DNA of 35,503 nt from Alistipes sp. (GTDB lineage Bacteria; Bacteroidota; Bacteroidia; Bacteroidales; Rikenellaceae): positions 1 through 35,503 of the forward strand of contig JAIEHQ010000053.1 of assembly GCA_029065825.1 (NCBI GenBank). Direction: 5' to 3'. The translations under genes were made by a program, and so were the position numbers. Of this stretch, positions 26,711-32,489 are shown in pieces. Position 1 is the stretch's first letter; every line of letters begins with the position of its first letter. The notes beneath the pieces are model-generated. The model saw only the letters and a list, made by a program, of their open reading frames with translations, was not told the DNA's origin and did not search any database.

Positions 26711-27631
26711 CTATTTCAGCAGGAAACGCTCGCACTCGAGTGCTGCCGTGCAACCCGATCCGGCGGCGGTGATCGCCTGACGGAAGTGGGGATCGCGGAC
26801 ATCGCCTGCGGCGAAGACACCCTCGACGTTGGTGCGTGCGCTGCCCGGAACGGTCTTGATATAACCCTCGGCATCCAGCTCCAGCTGACCGGCGAAGACC
26901 TCCGTGTTGGGGTGGTGTCCGATGGCCAGGAAGAAGCCTGCCAGTTCGATATTGCTCTCCGTGCCCTGTGCGTCGCGGACGGTAATGCCCGTCACGCCGC
27001 ACTCGTCGCCCAGCACCTCGACGGTGTTGTGCTCGAAGAGCACCTTGATGTTCGGGGTGTTCATCACGCGCTCCTGCATCGCTTTCGAGGCGCGCAGGAA
27101 AGGCTTGCGGACGATCAGATAGACCTGACGGCAGATCGAGGCGAGGTAGGTGGCCTCCTCGCAGGCCGTGTCGCCGCCGCCGACGACGGCAACGTCTTTC
27201 TTGCGGTAGAAGAAGCCGTCGCACGTGGCGCAGGCGCTCACACCCATTCCCTTGAACTTCTGCTCGGAGGGCAGACCCAGGTATTTGGCCGAAGCGCCGG
27301 TGGCCACGATCAGGCTCTCGGCGGCGATCTCCTTCTCGTCGTTGATCGTCACGCGGAACGGACGCGAGGAGAGATCGACCTTAGTGACGATGCCCGAACG
27401 GAGGTCGGCACCGAAGCGCTGCGCCTGGGCACGCATGTTCTCCATCAGTTTCGGGCCGTCGATGCCCTCCGGGAAACCGGGGAAGTTCTCGATCTGGGTG
27501 GTGGTGGTCAGCTGGCCGCCCGGCTCGATGCCCTCGTAGAGGACGGGAGAGAGGTTGGCGCGCGACAGATAGATGGCAGCCGTGAAGCCCGCGGGGCCGC
27601 TGCCGATGATGAGGCATTTTACTTGTTCCAT
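26711..27631 (-). CDS. trxB: Thioredoxin-disulfide reductase
   Basis: TrxB is an FAD enzyme that reduces thioredoxin with NADPH in the cytoplasm. The 306-residue protein shows the FAD loop IIGSGPAGFTAAIYLSRA, the redox-active disulfide ACATCDGFF, the NADPH loop VVGGGDTACEEATYLA and the C-terminal FAD segment GVFAAGDVRDPHFRQAITAA. The length is typical. It begins 18 nt after the pseudokinase gene on the same strand with no terminator or promoter between, so it is at least partly expressed from the kinase-VWA operon. That placement is unusual for a housekeeping enzyme. Confidence 0.96.
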   Translation of the reverse strand: MEQVKCLIIGSGPAGFTAAIYLSRANLSPVLYEGIEPGGQLTTTTQIENFPGFPEGIDGPKLMENMRAQAQRFGADLRSGIVTKVDLSSRPFRVTINDEKEIAAESLIVATGASAKYLGLPSEQKFKGMGVSACATCDGFFYRKKDVAVVGGGDTACEEATYLASICRQVYLIVRKPFLRASKAMQERVMNTPNIKVLFEHNTVEVLGDECGVTGITVRDAQGTESNIELAGFFLAIGHHPNTEVFAGQLELDAEGYIKTVPGSARTNVEGVFAAGDVRDPHFRQAITAAGSGCTAALECERFLLK

Positions 27632-27649: not shown

Positions 27650-28654
27650 TTATTTGGTTTCGATGTATTCGTTCTCTTCGATGTAGCGTTCCGTGAAGGG
27701 GGTGCCGATGCGGCCGTCGTAGTCGGCCAACGCCCAGAGTCCGCCGGAGCGTAGGCGCGAGCAGCCCGTGAAGGGGTTGAACTCGACGATCTCGTAATGG
27801 GGCGGAATCACGTAGCGGCCCCGTTTGTCGATCAGTCCCATGCCCGTCGGGGTCTGCACTTCGGCGCGGCCCTCGCGGAAGTCGGCGGCCCAGAGGAATT
27901 GCGGAGCTATGACCGGGCGGTTCTCCGTATCGACGAATCCGTAGCCCTCCCGATCCGCGATGCGGACCAGCTGGTCGGAGATCTCGCCCACGTAGAGGTG
28001 GCCAGGGAAACGGCTGCCGGTCAGGTATTCGGCGGGAGCCGCGTCGCAGAGCAGCGAGCCGGTTCCCCCCCCCTGCTCGACGGCGTAGCGACGCAGCGAG
28101 GCGAAGCCCTCCGCATCGTCGCCCGATCCGAAGCGGGCGAAGTGGTAGCGCACGGGGACGAGCTCTCCCGAGGGGTGCACGTAGGTGTTTTCGGGCTTGA
28201 GGTTGTTGTGGCTGAAGCCGATGGCCGCCAGTCCCTTTTCGAGGCGGTCGATCGACGCGAGCAGCACGTCGGTCGGAAATTCGGCGGCGCAGCGGTCGAG
28301 CGGACGGCCCCCGTCGGGCAGCCGGTGCAGCAGCAGGTCGCATCCCCGGGCGGGATCGCCGGCGAGCGACAACTCTCCGCGCAGGATGAGGTAGGGGGTC
28401 AGCAGCTCCGTGCGAAGCCGGCCGAGCCGGGCGGCGGTGCGCTCGACCGATTCGAGGGCTGCCGTCGAAAGCGGAAAGCAGAGCAGGTAGCGTGCTCCGC
28501 GCCACTCGATCTCGGTCTCGGCGAAGCGGCTCGTGCGCACGAGCCGCACCTCGCCCGCTTCGTCCCGCAGGGGGCGGCAGTCGCCGAGCGTGCGGAAGAA
28601 GAGGTCGGGCGCTTGCAACGCCTCCGAGAACTGATATAGCGTAGGTACCGTCAT
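27650..28654 (-). CDS. Pseudokinase with C-terminal WG-like repeats
   Basis: This 334-residue protein aligns by eye with the kinase at 31270-32436: each starts with a FRTLG/TRTLG segment, then the kinase-like domain. The key residues are lost. The lysine of the third strand is Leu58 (RYLLCF against RMLKCY), the catalytic Asp is Asn151 (HNNLKPEN, residues 149-156, against HGDLKPEN), and the DFD/DFG position reads RYH or HFA. The C-terminal third has WG-like repeats (GYGFVDTENRPVIAPQF, GMGLIDKRGRYVIPPHYE, GLWALADYDGRIGTPF). It begins 4 nt after the VWA stop and ends 18 nt before trxB. It probably serves as a partner, scaffold or activator of the kinase; function is unproven. Confidence 0.85.
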   Translation of the reverse strand: MTVPTLYQFSEALQAPDLFFRTLGDCRPLRDEAGEVRLVRTSRFAETEIEWRGARYLLCFPLSTAALESVERTAARLGRLRTELLTPYLILRGELSLAGDPARGCDLLLHRLPDGGRPLDRCAAEFPTDVLLASIDRLEKGLAAIGFSHNNLKPENTYVHPSGELVPVRYHFARFGSGDDAEGFASLRRYAVEQGGGTGSLLCDAAPAEYLTGSRFPGHLYVGEISDQLVRIADREGYGFVDTENRPVIAPQFLWAADFREGRAEVQTPTGMGLIDKRGRYVIPPHYEIVEFNPFTGCSRLRSGGLWALADYDGRIGTPFTERYIEENEYIETK

Positions 28655-28658
28655 GGCC

Positions 28659-29513
28659 TTATTGGATTCTGATGCTGATCGAGCCGATGTTGAGGATTGC
28701 GATCAGTTCGGCGATCGAGGCGTTGTGGCTCATCCCCCGGAAGGGCGGAAGGGCGTTGTCGCCCCGCACCTGCCGGATCGCCTCCGAGAGGTTGTCGGGC
28801 ATGACGCTCGAACAGTCGTGGAGCAGCCGGGCGTAGCGGTTGGCGGGGTCGATCTCCCCGTCGGCGGGGAAGACCAGCGACCGGGCCTCGGCATCGGAGG
28901 CGGTGTGTATGTTGAGCAGCAGCGTCTGTCCGTCGGCGGTGCCCGTCGCGCGGATCTGGTTGCAGATGTCCAGCTGTTCGCGCGGCTCGCAGTCGGAGGC
29001 TTCGCCGTCGGTTATGTTGAAGATCATGGGCGGGAAGCTCTCCCGGTGGGCCGGATGGGCGCACCAGCCGCGCACCAGGTCGCGGATCTGGAGCAGCGCC
29101 TCGTACATGGGAGTCTCCCCGGAGGCTTTGGGGGCGATCCAGGCCGGGGTCTCGATGCGGCGCACGGCGGGCGAGCCGTCGGGCATGCGCCGTTCGACCA
29201 GCCGCACGCGGCGCTCCACGGGCAGCTCGGCCAGCCGTGCGACGGAGACCAGCGGCAGCGGGTCGCCGAGCAGCGAGACCACCCCGTCGCCCGAGTAGCC
29301 CAGCACGGCCACGTCGTAGTAGTCGCGCACGCCGTCGCTCCGCCTGGCCCGTTCGATCAGCTCGAAGAGCAGCCGGTTAGCCACTTCGGCCACCGCCTCG
29401 GCCTTGGTCGTCTCGATTCCGCCGAAACGGATCCGCTGGGCCATCGAACCCGATTGGTCGATGGCCAGGATGAAGGCGGTGCGGTGCGCCCGCGTGATGC
29501 TTTGCGCGTACAT
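28659..29513 (-). CDS. VWA (von Willebrand factor A) domain protein with intact MIDAS
   Basis: This 284-residue cytoplasmic VWA protein has the metal-ion-dependent adhesion site DQSGS (residues 19-23, in AFILAIDQSGSMAQ), the Thr of SGETPMYEAL and the Asp of NITDGEASD. VWA proteins in bacteria often assemble or regulate complexes, including TerY-type ones coupled to kinases and phosphatases. There is no signal peptide or membrane helix. Its ATG shares a base with the DUF4954 stop (TAATG), and its stop is 4 nt before the pseudokinase, so the three are translationally coupled. The MIDAS residues predict Mg-dependent binding of an acidic ligand, perhaps a phosphorylated partner. Confidence 0.9.
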   Translation of the reverse strand: MYAQSITRAHRTAFILAIDQSGSMAQRIRFGGIETTKAEAVAEVANRLLFELIERARRSDGVRDYYDVAVLGYSGDGVVSLLGDPLPLVSVARLAELPVERRVRLVERRMPDGSPAVRRIETPAWIAPKASGETPMYEALLQIRDLVRGWCAHPAHRESFPPMIFNITDGEASDCEPREQLDICNQIRATGTADGQTLLLNIHTASDAEARSLVFPADGEIDPANRYARLLHDCSSVMPDNLSEAIRQVRGDNALPPFRGMSHNASIAELIAILNIGSISIRIQ

Positions 29514-31240
29514 TATTTCAGGCCTCTTACGTTGCGGTAATCTTCGTTTTTCTCCTCATCGGTGTCGGCTTCCGTTCCGTAGCCGACCGCCATTGCGGAG
29601 GAGCAGTCGCGCGCCCGGTCGTCGTCGGCGCTTTTAGCCAGCGCCTCGCTGGCGTTCCGCCCGGCTGCGATCGCTTCGGCGATCTCTTCGGGCGAGGGGG
29701 CGTGGCCCAGCAGCTGGGCGAGCACACCTTCGGCCCAGTTGCGGGCGTAGCGGGGGTAGTCGGCCGCCAGCAGGTCGAGCCGCTCCTCGATCTGCCGGAG
29801 CGTGGCGAGCCGTCCCGCCTCGATGTCGTCGAGCAGGCGGCGCACCTCGCGGCGCGGGACGTACTGGCCGGCCAGGTCGCTCCAGCGGCCCGAGCCGTCG
29901 CGGTCGCCCGCCTCGGCCCCGCCGAGCATCGCCCCGAGCGAGGCGACGATGGCCCGGTTGTATAGTTTGAGTCCCCGCCGGAGCTGTACGGATTTGATCG
30001 TGGCGTGGTTGTGCACGTAGCTTTCGGCGTCGGGCCGAGCCTCTTCGAGGGTGTTGAGCGTGTTTACCGCGTCGATCATGCCGCCCGCGAGGTAGGGGTT
30101 GTGCACTTCGAAATTGATCCGGTCGCGGCGCAGCGTGCGGCGGTCCCGCTCGGGCCACTTGGCCGTGTCGCGGACGGTGCCGTAGCTGGTCAGGTTGGCC
30201 CCCGGCATCAGGCTGGAGCGCCCCTCCTGCTCGACCAGGTAGGAGAAGGGGAAGGCGGTGGTGTCGTGGTGGTGCGTGTGCCGCCCCAGCACCAGCGTGA
30301 AGGGTCCTTCGACGGCCGGTGCCATGACGTAGGCGCTGCTGCCGAATTTGCAGCCCCGCAGGTGGATCGACTGGTGGACCGCGCCGCTCTTGAAGAGGTG
30401 GTTGCTCTGGTTGGCTCCGCTTCCCGCGTTGAAAAAGGAGAACATGCCGGCGATGAGCAGCGAGGATTTGTGGTGCGAGACGGTGTAGGGGCCGGCGAAG
30501 ACGGAGACCGCCTCGCCGTTCTCGCAGTGGCAGTTGGCGAACAGAAGCGTATCGACCGCCGTGAAGTTCCGGTCGAGCGTGCAGCACTCGCCCGCGAAGC
30601 AGCGTTCGAGCGAGACACCTCCGTCGATATGCGCCCCTTCGGCCGCGATGAAGTCGCGCGCCGTTACGTCGATGCCGATGAACGCGCCGCTGAGGACGGT
30701 GCCGTTCTCGAGCCGCGAGGCTCCTTCGACGACGGCATCCTCAGCGATATGGACCTCCCGGATGAAGCGGGCGCCCACCACGCGGGCCCGCTTCCCGACC
30801 GTACCCATCCGGTCGCGCCGGGTCTCGGCGCGACGGTCGATGATCCGCTCCAGCGCGGCGATCGCTGCGGGGCGGTGGCGGCAGAGGGCCAGCAGGTAGG
30901 CCGCCTGGGCCGACAGCTCGTTGCAGAGGGGCAGCGCGCGTCCGCCGCACTCGTTGATCGCGGCCACGCGCACTCCGTTGCCGAACGACGACTCGTGCCG
31001 GCATTCGAGGCGGCAGACATCCGAAACGACGGCTTCGTCGCAGATCCGGTAGTTGCTTACTGTCGCACGGCGGATTTGTGCGCCCCGTCCGATCCGCACG
31101 TCGCCTTCGAAGCGGCTGTCGCGGATCTCCTCCGGACGGAATCCGGGGGCGACCTCCACCCGCTCCCATGCCTGGGCGGTGTTGCCGGCGGCTTCGAGGC
31201 GGGCGATCTCTTCCTGGGTAAGTTTTCTGTATTCCGTCAT
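29513..31240 (-). CDS. DUF4954 family protein (left-handed beta-helix type)
   Basis: This 575-residue protein matches the DUF4954 family of Bacteroidota by several segments: YRKLTQEEIARLEAAG at the N-terminus, NECGGRALPLCNELSAQAAY, VSHHKSSLLIAGMFSFFNAG, SGANQSNHLFKSGAVHQ and TVRDTAKWPERD. Hexapeptide-like repeats (for example GDVRIGRGAQIRRATVSN) point to a left-handed parallel beta-helix as in sugar-nucleotide or acyl transferases. No activity is established. It is somewhat shorter than the members I recall. The start at 31240 (MTEYRKLTQ) follows the family; the frame runs to 31273. The C-terminus is acidic and low in complexity. It has its own promoter inside the end of the kinase gene and a one-base overlap with the VWA gene. 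Confidence 0.88.
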   Translation of the reverse strand: MTEYRKLTQEEIARLEAAGNTAQAWERVEVAPGFRPEEIRDSRFEGDVRIGRGAQIRRATVSNYRICDEAVVSDVCRLECRHESSFGNGVRVAAINECGGRALPLCNELSAQAAYLLALCRHRPAAIAALERIIDRRAETRRDRMGTVGKRARVVGARFIREVHIAEDAVVEGASRLENGTVLSGAFIGIDVTARDFIAAEGAHIDGGVSLERCFAGECCTLDRNFTAVDTLLFANCHCENGEAVSVFAGPYTVSHHKSSLLIAGMFSFFNAGSGANQSNHLFKSGAVHQSIHLRGCKFGSSAYVMAPAVEGPFTLVLGRHTHHHDTTAFPFSYLVEQEGRSSLMPGANLTSYGTVRDTAKWPERDRRTLRRDRINFEVHNPYLAGGMIDAVNTLNTLEEARPDAESYVHNHATIKSVQLRRGLKLYNRAIVASLGAMLGGAEAGDRDGSGRWSDLAGQYVPRREVRRLLDDIEAGRLATLRQIEERLDLLAADYPRYARNWAEGVLAQLLGHAPSPEEIAEAIAAGRNASEALAKSADDDRARDCSSAMAVGYGTEADTDEEKNEDYRNVRGLK

Positions 31241-31260
31241 GTTCGTTCCGAAATATGAGG

Positions 31261-31292
31261 CAAATGTAGTCATTTGCCCTCAAATATCCAAA
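31261..31292 (-). promoter_or_regulatory. Internal promoter for DUF4954-VWA-pseudokinase, inside the kinase gene end
   Basis: On the minus strand TTTG (31292-31289) and TACATTTG (31268-31261) are 20 nt apart, with the DUF4954 ATG 20 nt after. The -7 box lies in the inverted repeat CAAATG-TAGT-CATTTG (31261-31276). Confidence 0.65.
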
Positions 31293-32436
31293 GCGCTTCC
31301 CGCCCCCGGCGGTCGATCGTGCGGCGCTCCCCTCCGTGCACCACGACGGCCCGTCCGCCGGCGAAGGGCTTCACGGCCGTGCAGTGCGCGCAGTCGATGG
31401 CGACTCGGCCGCCGCCGTCGATGAAATGCCAGCAGCGTCCCGTGCGGACGGCGGCCAGCCCCTCCGTGAAGTCGAAGGCCGCGTCGTAAAGGGGCGGAAT
31501 CGTCTCCCCGGCGGCCGTGCGGAAGCCCCACAGCCCGTCGCGCACGAAGAGTTCGCTGCGGTCGGCCTGCCCCGAAGGCCCCTCGACGGCATATTCCAGC
31601 AGGCGGCGGAGCGTCGGCAGCCGCAGCAGGGGCGAACGCAGCAGCCGGGCGATGCGGTAGCGCACGGCATCGCCCGCCCGTTCGAACAGGGCGAGCGTCT
31701 CGGCATAGGCTTCCGACCGTCCCCCGAGCAGGGTGCGCGGCACGAGCAGCACCCCCTCCTCCGTATCGCCCAGGGCGAGCAGGCCGGGATTCAGGGCCAG
31801 GGCATGAAGCGTGGTGGAGATCAGAGCGATCGAGTAGTCGTCGATCGCCGCATCGAAGTCCTCCGGCGTGCGGGCCGGATGCTGGTAGGCGGCCGTCCCC
31901 AGCTCGGGGCTGCGCTCGCCGGCGAAGGCGGGCAGAAAGGCGCAGTCGAAGTCGATCGGGCGGAGTGCGCCCTCGGGACCGACCAGGATGTTTTCGGGCT
32001 TCAGGTCGCCGTGGGCCGTCGGGCTGCGGAGCATGCCGAGGGCCATGCGGTCGAAGGCGGCGGCCAGCTGCGCGAGCCGCTCCGTGTCGCCGCTGCGGAC
32101 GGCCCGGAGCAGCTCCTCGCGGAGGGTGGCGCCCTCGATCCAGTCGTCGATCACGGCATCGCCCCAGACCCCGTTCCCGTCGGGCTGCCAGAGGTAGATC
32201 TCCTCCGGGAGGAACCGTTCGCCGTAGATGGCCTCCAGCCGCCGCATCGGACGGGTGTAGCACTTGAGCATGCGGAACTTGCCTCCGCAGCTTATCTTGA
32301 AGACGACCGCGCTGTTGCCCACCCAGCGGGCGGGCGAGCCGTCGGGCAGGCGGCACACCCCGAAGGGACCCAGCGTGCGGGTCAGCCCCTCGGGGTCGTC
32401 CATCGTTTCGAGGTATTGGCGGATCGACAGGTGCAT
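31270..32436 (-). CDS. Serine/threonine-type protein kinase-like protein with WG-like C-terminal repeats
   Basis: This 388-residue protein has the residues of an active kinase-like fold: Lys58 in KFRMLKCY, a hinge-like VIDDWIEGATL, the catalytic loop HGDLKPEN (residues 142-149), DFD at 162-164 and GTAAYQHP with DDYSIAL in place of the activation-segment end. The glycine-rich loop is not obvious. The C-terminal region shows WG-type repeats (GLWGFRTAAGETIPPLYD, RCWHFIDGGGRVAIDC). No membrane helix is seen. It is the first gene of the kinase-DUF4954-VWA-pseudokinase run. MHLSIRQYLE at 32436 is the chosen start; an alternative ATG at 32484 would sit inside the upstream terminator. Targets are unknown. 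Confidence 0.88.
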   Translation of the reverse strand: MHLSIRQYLETMDDPEGLTRTLGPFGVCRLPDGSPARWVGNSAVVFKISCGGKFRMLKCYTRPMRRLEAIYGERFLPEEIYLWQPDGNGVWGDAVIDDWIEGATLREELLRAVRSGDTERLAQLAAAFDRMALGMLRSPTAHGDLKPENILVGPEGALRPIDFDCAFLPAFAGERSPELGTAAYQHPARTPEDFDAAIDDYSIALISTTLHALALNPGLLALGDTEEGVLLVPRTLLGGRSEAYAETLALFERAGDAVRYRIARLLRSPLLRLPTLRRLLEYAVEGPSGQADRSELFVRDGLWGFRTAAGETIPPLYDAAFDFTEGLAAVRTGRCWHFIDGGGRVAIDCAHCTAVKPFAGGRAVVVHGGERRTIDRRGREALWIFEGK

Positions 32437-32453
32437 GGGTTTCGTGTCGGTGT

Positions 32454-32489
32454 AAAAAACGAGTGGAAAACCGGGGCTTTCCACTCGTT
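32454..32489 (-). terminator. Intrinsic terminator of the FKBP-type isomerase gene
   Basis: On the minus strand a 10-12-bp stem (32478-32489 with 32458-32469) with an 8-nt loop is followed by six T residues. It ends 17 nt before the kinase start codon, leaving little room for a separate kinase promoter. Confidence 0.85.

Follow-up and report, generated by a model that had tools for sequence, protein, structure and literature searches.

A TerY-linked pseudokinase as a candidate regulatory partner of its active-type paralogue in a phosphatase-less, apparently TerY-P-derived module

The TerY-P triad consists of TerY, a PP2C phosphatase and a kinase with an OB fold or zinc ribbon, and has been reported both as a phage defence and as a companion of restriction systems (PMC11090510, PMC4978471, PMC7699616). 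Bacterial pseudokinases are widely predicted but hardly understood. The bacterial Ser/Thr pseudokinases covered in a 2025 review (ActPs1-3, GLW, CP1, DYD, DLHK and EssB/YukC) have a kinase fold with lost catalytic motifs, as does the protein described below, and EssB/YukC also resemble it in having a reduced activation loop (PMC12599244). SelO and SidJ show that pseudokinase-type proteins can have other activities (PMC12599244). By word search, Bacteroid-, TerY, PP2C, von Willebrand and repeats do not occur in the text of that review; literature searches found no paper joining TerY-P and a pseudokinase, and nothing on the function of WG repeats.

The closest working parallel to the locus studied here, by analogy only, is STRADalpha-LKB1-MO25, which follows the same logic of a kinase, a pseudokinase and a non-kinase partner. 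STRADalpha has Ser at the catalytic Asp position and Arg inside the DFG motif (PMC2686265). It retains the canonical kinase fold and can bind ATP, and its Arg lies at a different motif position from the Arg of our pseudokinase. STRADalpha, LKB1 and MO25 form a heterotrimer, whereas the complex proposed here is predicted from genes, and no common origin is claimed.

The window, meaning the whole 35,503-nucleotide stretch analysed, comes from Alistipes sp. (Rikenellaceae) and carries on its minus strand the gene order FKBP - KIN - DUF4954 - TerY/VWA - PSK - trxB, where KIN is an active-type kinase, VWA a TerY-type protein and PSK a pseudokinase (Table 1). KIN, the DUF4954 gene, VWA and PSK overlap or sit a few bases apart. 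The locus shares with TerY-P a TerY-type VWA with an intact MIDAS, a kinase that matches the STK_OB kinase domain, and the adjacency of these genes. It differs in that PP2C is absent and a pseudokinase paralogue stands in its place. The C-terminus of the TerY-P kinase is an OB fold or zinc ribbon, whereas KIN has WG repeats, and its STK_OB match is confined to the kinase domain (profile positions 94-245 of 562), the rest of the profile being unmatched. In a further difference from TerY-P, the module keeps a fixed position on the chromosome, next to trxB, in much of the window's genus, and no defence gene was recognised beside it. Because neither the PP2C nor the OB fold or zinc ribbon of the kinase is present, we call the family module a putative phosphatase-less variant derived from TerY-P and not a TerY-P member.

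Table 1. Positions of genes, motifs and the predicted hairpin in the window
Feature	Coordinates	Strand	Basis
trxB, starts 18 nt after PSK; flanking syntenic gene outside the core module	26711..27631	-	
PSK, pseudokinase, 334 aa	27650..28654	-	ORF; kinase-like domain residues 1-197, C-terminal WG repeats about 230-320
PSK WG repeats	27695..27967	-	PF14903
PSK Arg169 codon at DFG Asp position	28148..28150	-	genus alignment
PSK degenerate catalytic loop HNNLKPEN, residues 149-156, Asn151 replacing catalytic Asp	28187..28210	-	alignments
PSK Leu58 codon at beta3 Lys position	28481..28483	-	genus alignment
TerY-type VWA protein, intact MIDAS	28659..29513	-	PADLOC TerY 4.5e-56; alignment
DUF4954/DUF6819 protein between KIN and VWA	29513..31273	-	PF16314 3.4e-141
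KIN, active-type kinase with WG repeats	31270..32436 (ATG; 31270-32484 as listed ORF)	-	PADLOC STK_OB 1.4e-21
Terminator-like hairpin in FKBP-KIN gap, 14-bp stem, U6	32452..32489	-	fold -20.4 kcal/mol, z -7.3

The DUF4954 protein was considered as a core part of the module and rejected, since it is missing from many loci and is an insertion limited to part of the window's genus; between KIN and VWA it is absent in loci L040, L041, L046, L049, L052 and L063 and in the other genera. The hairpin is strong and separates FKBP from KIN, although a consensus scanner missed it, and it falls within the KIN ORF as read from its GTG start. The ATG at 32436 is therefore the probable start of KIN, and KIN to PSK, possibly with trxB, looks like an operon of its own. 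A promoter scan found no sigma-70-like site, although the sigma-70 consensus may not fit this phylum.

From an alignment by eye, the initial annotation had described PSK as a paralogue of KIN that lost all three catalytic positions while retaining the LKPEN remainder and the WG repeats. Profile-profile alignment with KIN (hhalign, 99.8% probability, E 9.5e-28), which spans the whole length of the proteins, from a common N-terminal stretch over the kinase-like domain to the WG repeats, bears this out and pairs HGDLKPEN with HNNLKPEN. Position by position, the alignments have Leu58 for Lys58 of KIN (Lys74 in the 404-aa ORF), Asn151 for the catalytic Asp, and VRYH for IDFD, where Arg169 is found and there is no Asp. 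The WG repeats are recognised by PF14903 at 6.4e-12 (45.7 bits against a curated cut-off of 25.6). Counting three losses proved too modest, as the glycine loop is also absent relative to KIN and a stretch of about 80 residues is deleted downstream of the DFG position, ahead of the WG repeats, taking with it the activation segment and part of the C-lobe; this stretch is likewise missing in comparison with the longer PSKs of other genera. One of the three, the beta3 Lys, is moreover a poor marker. HGDLKP-N and DxD are kept in 21/21 KIN orthologues, which divide at the beta3 position into 11 with Lys and 10 with Arg; the 10 with Arg keep every other catalytic residue, so the beta3 residue alone does not mark inactivity here.

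An AlphaFold2 model of PSK, with 34 orthologues in the alignment, reached a mean pLDDT of 90.7 and a pTM of 0.60, the latter as expected for two predicted domains with uncertain packing. In a Foldseek search with this model the kinase-like part alone matched, to protein kinases in the PDB (E about 1e-6, prob 1.00, TM-scores 0.27-0.46). PSK thus combines a predicted kinase fold with a loss, conserved among orthologues, of residues among the VAIK Lys, HRD Asp and DFG Asp, and by fold and conserved motif loss it is a pseudokinase, its inactivity being predicted from the sequence.

The genus alignment of PSK has 36 rows, of which 35 are readable at the catalytic Asp, the position being missing in the broken copy at L047, and the Asp is absent from all 35 (Asn in 32, Gly, Arg and Ala in one each). 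The Asn and the Leu of the window are therefore not peculiar to it: Asn is present in 32/36 rows and L, I or V stands at the beta3 Lys position in 34/36, with Lys in none. Arg occupies the DFG Asp position in 32/36 rows, and the alphaC Glu94 is retained in 34/36. In the kinase-like part P61 is invariant and L23, E94, H149, N151, L152 and R169 are nearly so, while most invariant positions fall in the WG part (G239, F259, R263, G273, I275 and G314). Between the window and locus L031, whose protein is 97% identical, the dN/dS of PSK is 0.14 (NG86) or 0.07 (YN00), with a similar range in KIN and VWA. PSK is under purifying selection.

The possibility that PSK is a single damaged copy, or that its losses reflect an alignment error, has one interrupted orthologue in its favour, the MAG-derived broken copy at L047, and is in practice ruled out by the 36 conserved genus rows, the low dN/dS and the single clade described below. 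Homologues keeping Lys, Asp and DFG, which would have pointed to such a copy, were sought among the orthologues and none was found. The view that KIN and PSK form a paralogous pair of active-type kinase and pseudokinase accordingly holds, on the genus rows, the orthologues from other genera, the clade and the purifying selection.

Two smaller observations concern the variation of PSK within the genus. Compared with L031, the WG part (27695-27997) has 2 synonymous and 0 other codon changes in 101 codons and the kinase-like part 27 synonymous and 10 other changes in 197 codons, a contrast that suggests a possible recombination tract. The L047 copy (1562-2491; genome G010) is interrupted by an in-frame TAG, through real loss or an assembly error.

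The module extends through the family. PSK profile matches (E<=1e-10) occur in 186/200 family genomes and in all 22 genera, although in some cases only the WG part is matched, in a different protein. Among 20 loci sampled from other genera, KIN, VWA and PSK are contiguous and in this order in 17; two of the others have VWA and PSK without KIN nearby and one lies on a contig that ends at VWA. In L115 (6829-8456) and L116 (5764-7071), two of these 17, PSK is read as two overlapping or neighbouring frames, from real loss or assembly errors. In the PSKs aligned from other genera (n=17) the catalytic Asp is gone in 17/17 (N, A, F, H, G or R) and the DFG Asp in 15, and the beta3 position is still Lys in 9. 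Loss of the catalytic Asp is thus general, whereas the Lys and a large share of the C-lobe disappeared afterwards, on the branch to the window's genus.

In a maximum-likelihood tree all PSKs form one clade (support 100/100, or 95/93 when the catalytic columns are left out), which neighbours the KINs and falls within an outgroup made up of other-family triad kinases. The simplest reading of these sequences is that PSK originated in one kinase duplication, at or before the family ancestor.

In a search of 295 genomes of the order, 9 matched the VWA profile, and six of these 9 belong to other families; in the loci read from those matched genomes TerY adjoins PP2C, and four also have a kinase that keeps HGD and DxD. 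PSK comes after TerY, in the same position as PP2C in the other-family triads of the order. Beyond the paired kinase and pseudokinase recognised initially, the wider context is thus a KIN/PSK pair organised around a TerY-type VWA, with PSK in the gene place of PP2C. A module phosphatase encoded elsewhere in the genome was considered and rejected, as neither of two triad-type PP2C profiles has a match in the 101 family genomes searched: an alignment of the PP2Cs of neighbouring triads gave 0/101, with all six of its members recovered in a leave-one-out control, and the PADLOC PP2C profile gave 0/101, with 5/5 control genomes positive. PF13672 (PP2C_2) proteins are present in six genus genomes, in other clusters (with kinase, FHA, VWA or unrelated genes) and not with the module.

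Among 37 genus genomes, 30 have KIN, VWA and PSK, 3 have none and 4 are mixed, all 4 with a divergent VWA; PSK and KIN co-occur (Fisher p 0.001, uncorrected for phylogeny). PSK adjoins VWA while KIN is elsewhere in five genomes (G004, G017, G018, G022 and G030), and KIN adjoins VWA while PSK is elsewhere in one (G005). VWA is therefore the common element where the genes are separated. Its MIDAS residues D19, S21, S23 and D169 are invariant in 33 sequences, with T134 nearly so, and these two features together suggest a complex centred on VWA. Mirror-tree correlations (KIN-VWA 0.57, VWA-PSK 0.45, KIN-PSK 0.18) are matched by control pairs, which are equally high at 0.52-0.79, so the values are not specific to the module.

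On this evidence we consider it somewhat probable that the module is a phosphatase-less derivative of TerY-P in which PSK, arising from one kinase duplication, is an ancient, non-catalytic and TerY-linked regulatory partner of KIN. The MIDAS-containing VWA would act as the hub holding KIN and PSK in one complex, and PSK, presumably incapable of phosphate transfer, would be the subunit that regulates KIN, by means of its kinase-like surface and its WG repeats. Its effect on KIN could be activation, restraint or recruitment of substrates, and scaffolding, which the initial annotation named beside allosteric activation, is a further possibility. In two genomes (G003, 93% complete, and G029, 87%) PSK occurs with a divergent VWA and no detectable KIN, which argues against a role purely as activator of KIN, or one confined to KIN.

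Restraint deserves particular attention, since PSK stands where TerY-P triads carry the phosphatase, which makes an antagonist role plausible. PSK could have replaced PP2C as the antagonist of KIN, competing for the VWA hub or for ligands bound by the WG repeats, so that kinase output would be set by stoichiometry instead of dephosphorylation. This is a serious rival, if a fairly unlikely one: the shared architecture of PSK and KIN, the pairing of VWA with either of them and the lack of a triad PP2C in the 101 family genomes would all fit it, but a shared gene place can also come from independent PP2C loss and kinase duplication, and other phosphatases, such as the PP2C_2 proteins that some genus genomes encode in other clusters, could undo the phosphorylation. 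The concentration of invariant positions in the WG part and the shortened C-lobe of PSK in the genus raise a different thought, that the kinase-like part is a degenerate linker and that PSK acts as the module's sensor, its conserved task being to offer the WG repeats to a ligand with no allosteric contact to KIN. We find this improbable, because the kinase-like part is itself conserved, with P61 invariant and other positions nearly so, and is predicted to fold well. Least probable of these three, and quite remote, is a new enzymatic activity in a rebuilt pocket (R40, E46, E94, N151, N156 and R169) after the manner of SelO and SidJ, which set the precedent (PMC12599244). The polar pocket positions are conserved in the genus, but PSK has lost the beta3 Lys and the glycine loop, and its counterparts in other genera carry different pocket residues.

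Returning to PSK as a regulatory partner of KIN, it comes with an active sister, a presumed hub and, judging from other families, a phosphatase that it has seemingly replaced, and with PSK, KIN and VWA as a set, what a pseudokinase does for its kinase becomes testable with three proteins. A tentative but possible extension is that a switch made of kinase, VWA and phosphatase was remodelled into one of kinase, VWA and pseudokinase, with an inactive kinase duplicate replacing the phosphatase as the counterpart of the kinase. In that case a relative of the anti-phage TerY-P systems would have turned into a signalling device that belongs to the core of the family and is inherited vertically. This suggests how a TerY-P module, elsewhere known as phage defence, could come to serve in core regulation.

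In four genus genomes (L145:6968-7906, L146:6981-7919, L147:6271-7203 and L148:6618-7496) a divergent TerY-like VWA occurs without a triad and adjoins a conserved gene of ~410 aa, transporter-like in appearance. In another family, a triad locus with PP2C in genome G398 has two tandem kinase copies (L163:5593-8289 and L140:2557-5688; 79% identical over 874 aligned residues). One copy lacks 33 residues in frame, and with them the glycine loop and the beta3 Lys, but retains HGD and DYD; it could be a nascent pseudokinase or a recent broken copy. From such sequences, inactive kinase duplicates may have arisen more than once in TerY-P loci. Three other-family TerY-P loci (L140:6388-7854, L141:1888-3366 and L142:6405-7850) encode a fusion protein in which a DarT-like ADP-ribosyltransferase domain (PF14487, 1e-35 to 5e-42) precedes the TerY VWA at the N-terminus, apparently a DarT linked to a kinase and phosphatase, and a DUF6939 gene adjoins the fusion in L142, with a similar gene in L140 and L141.
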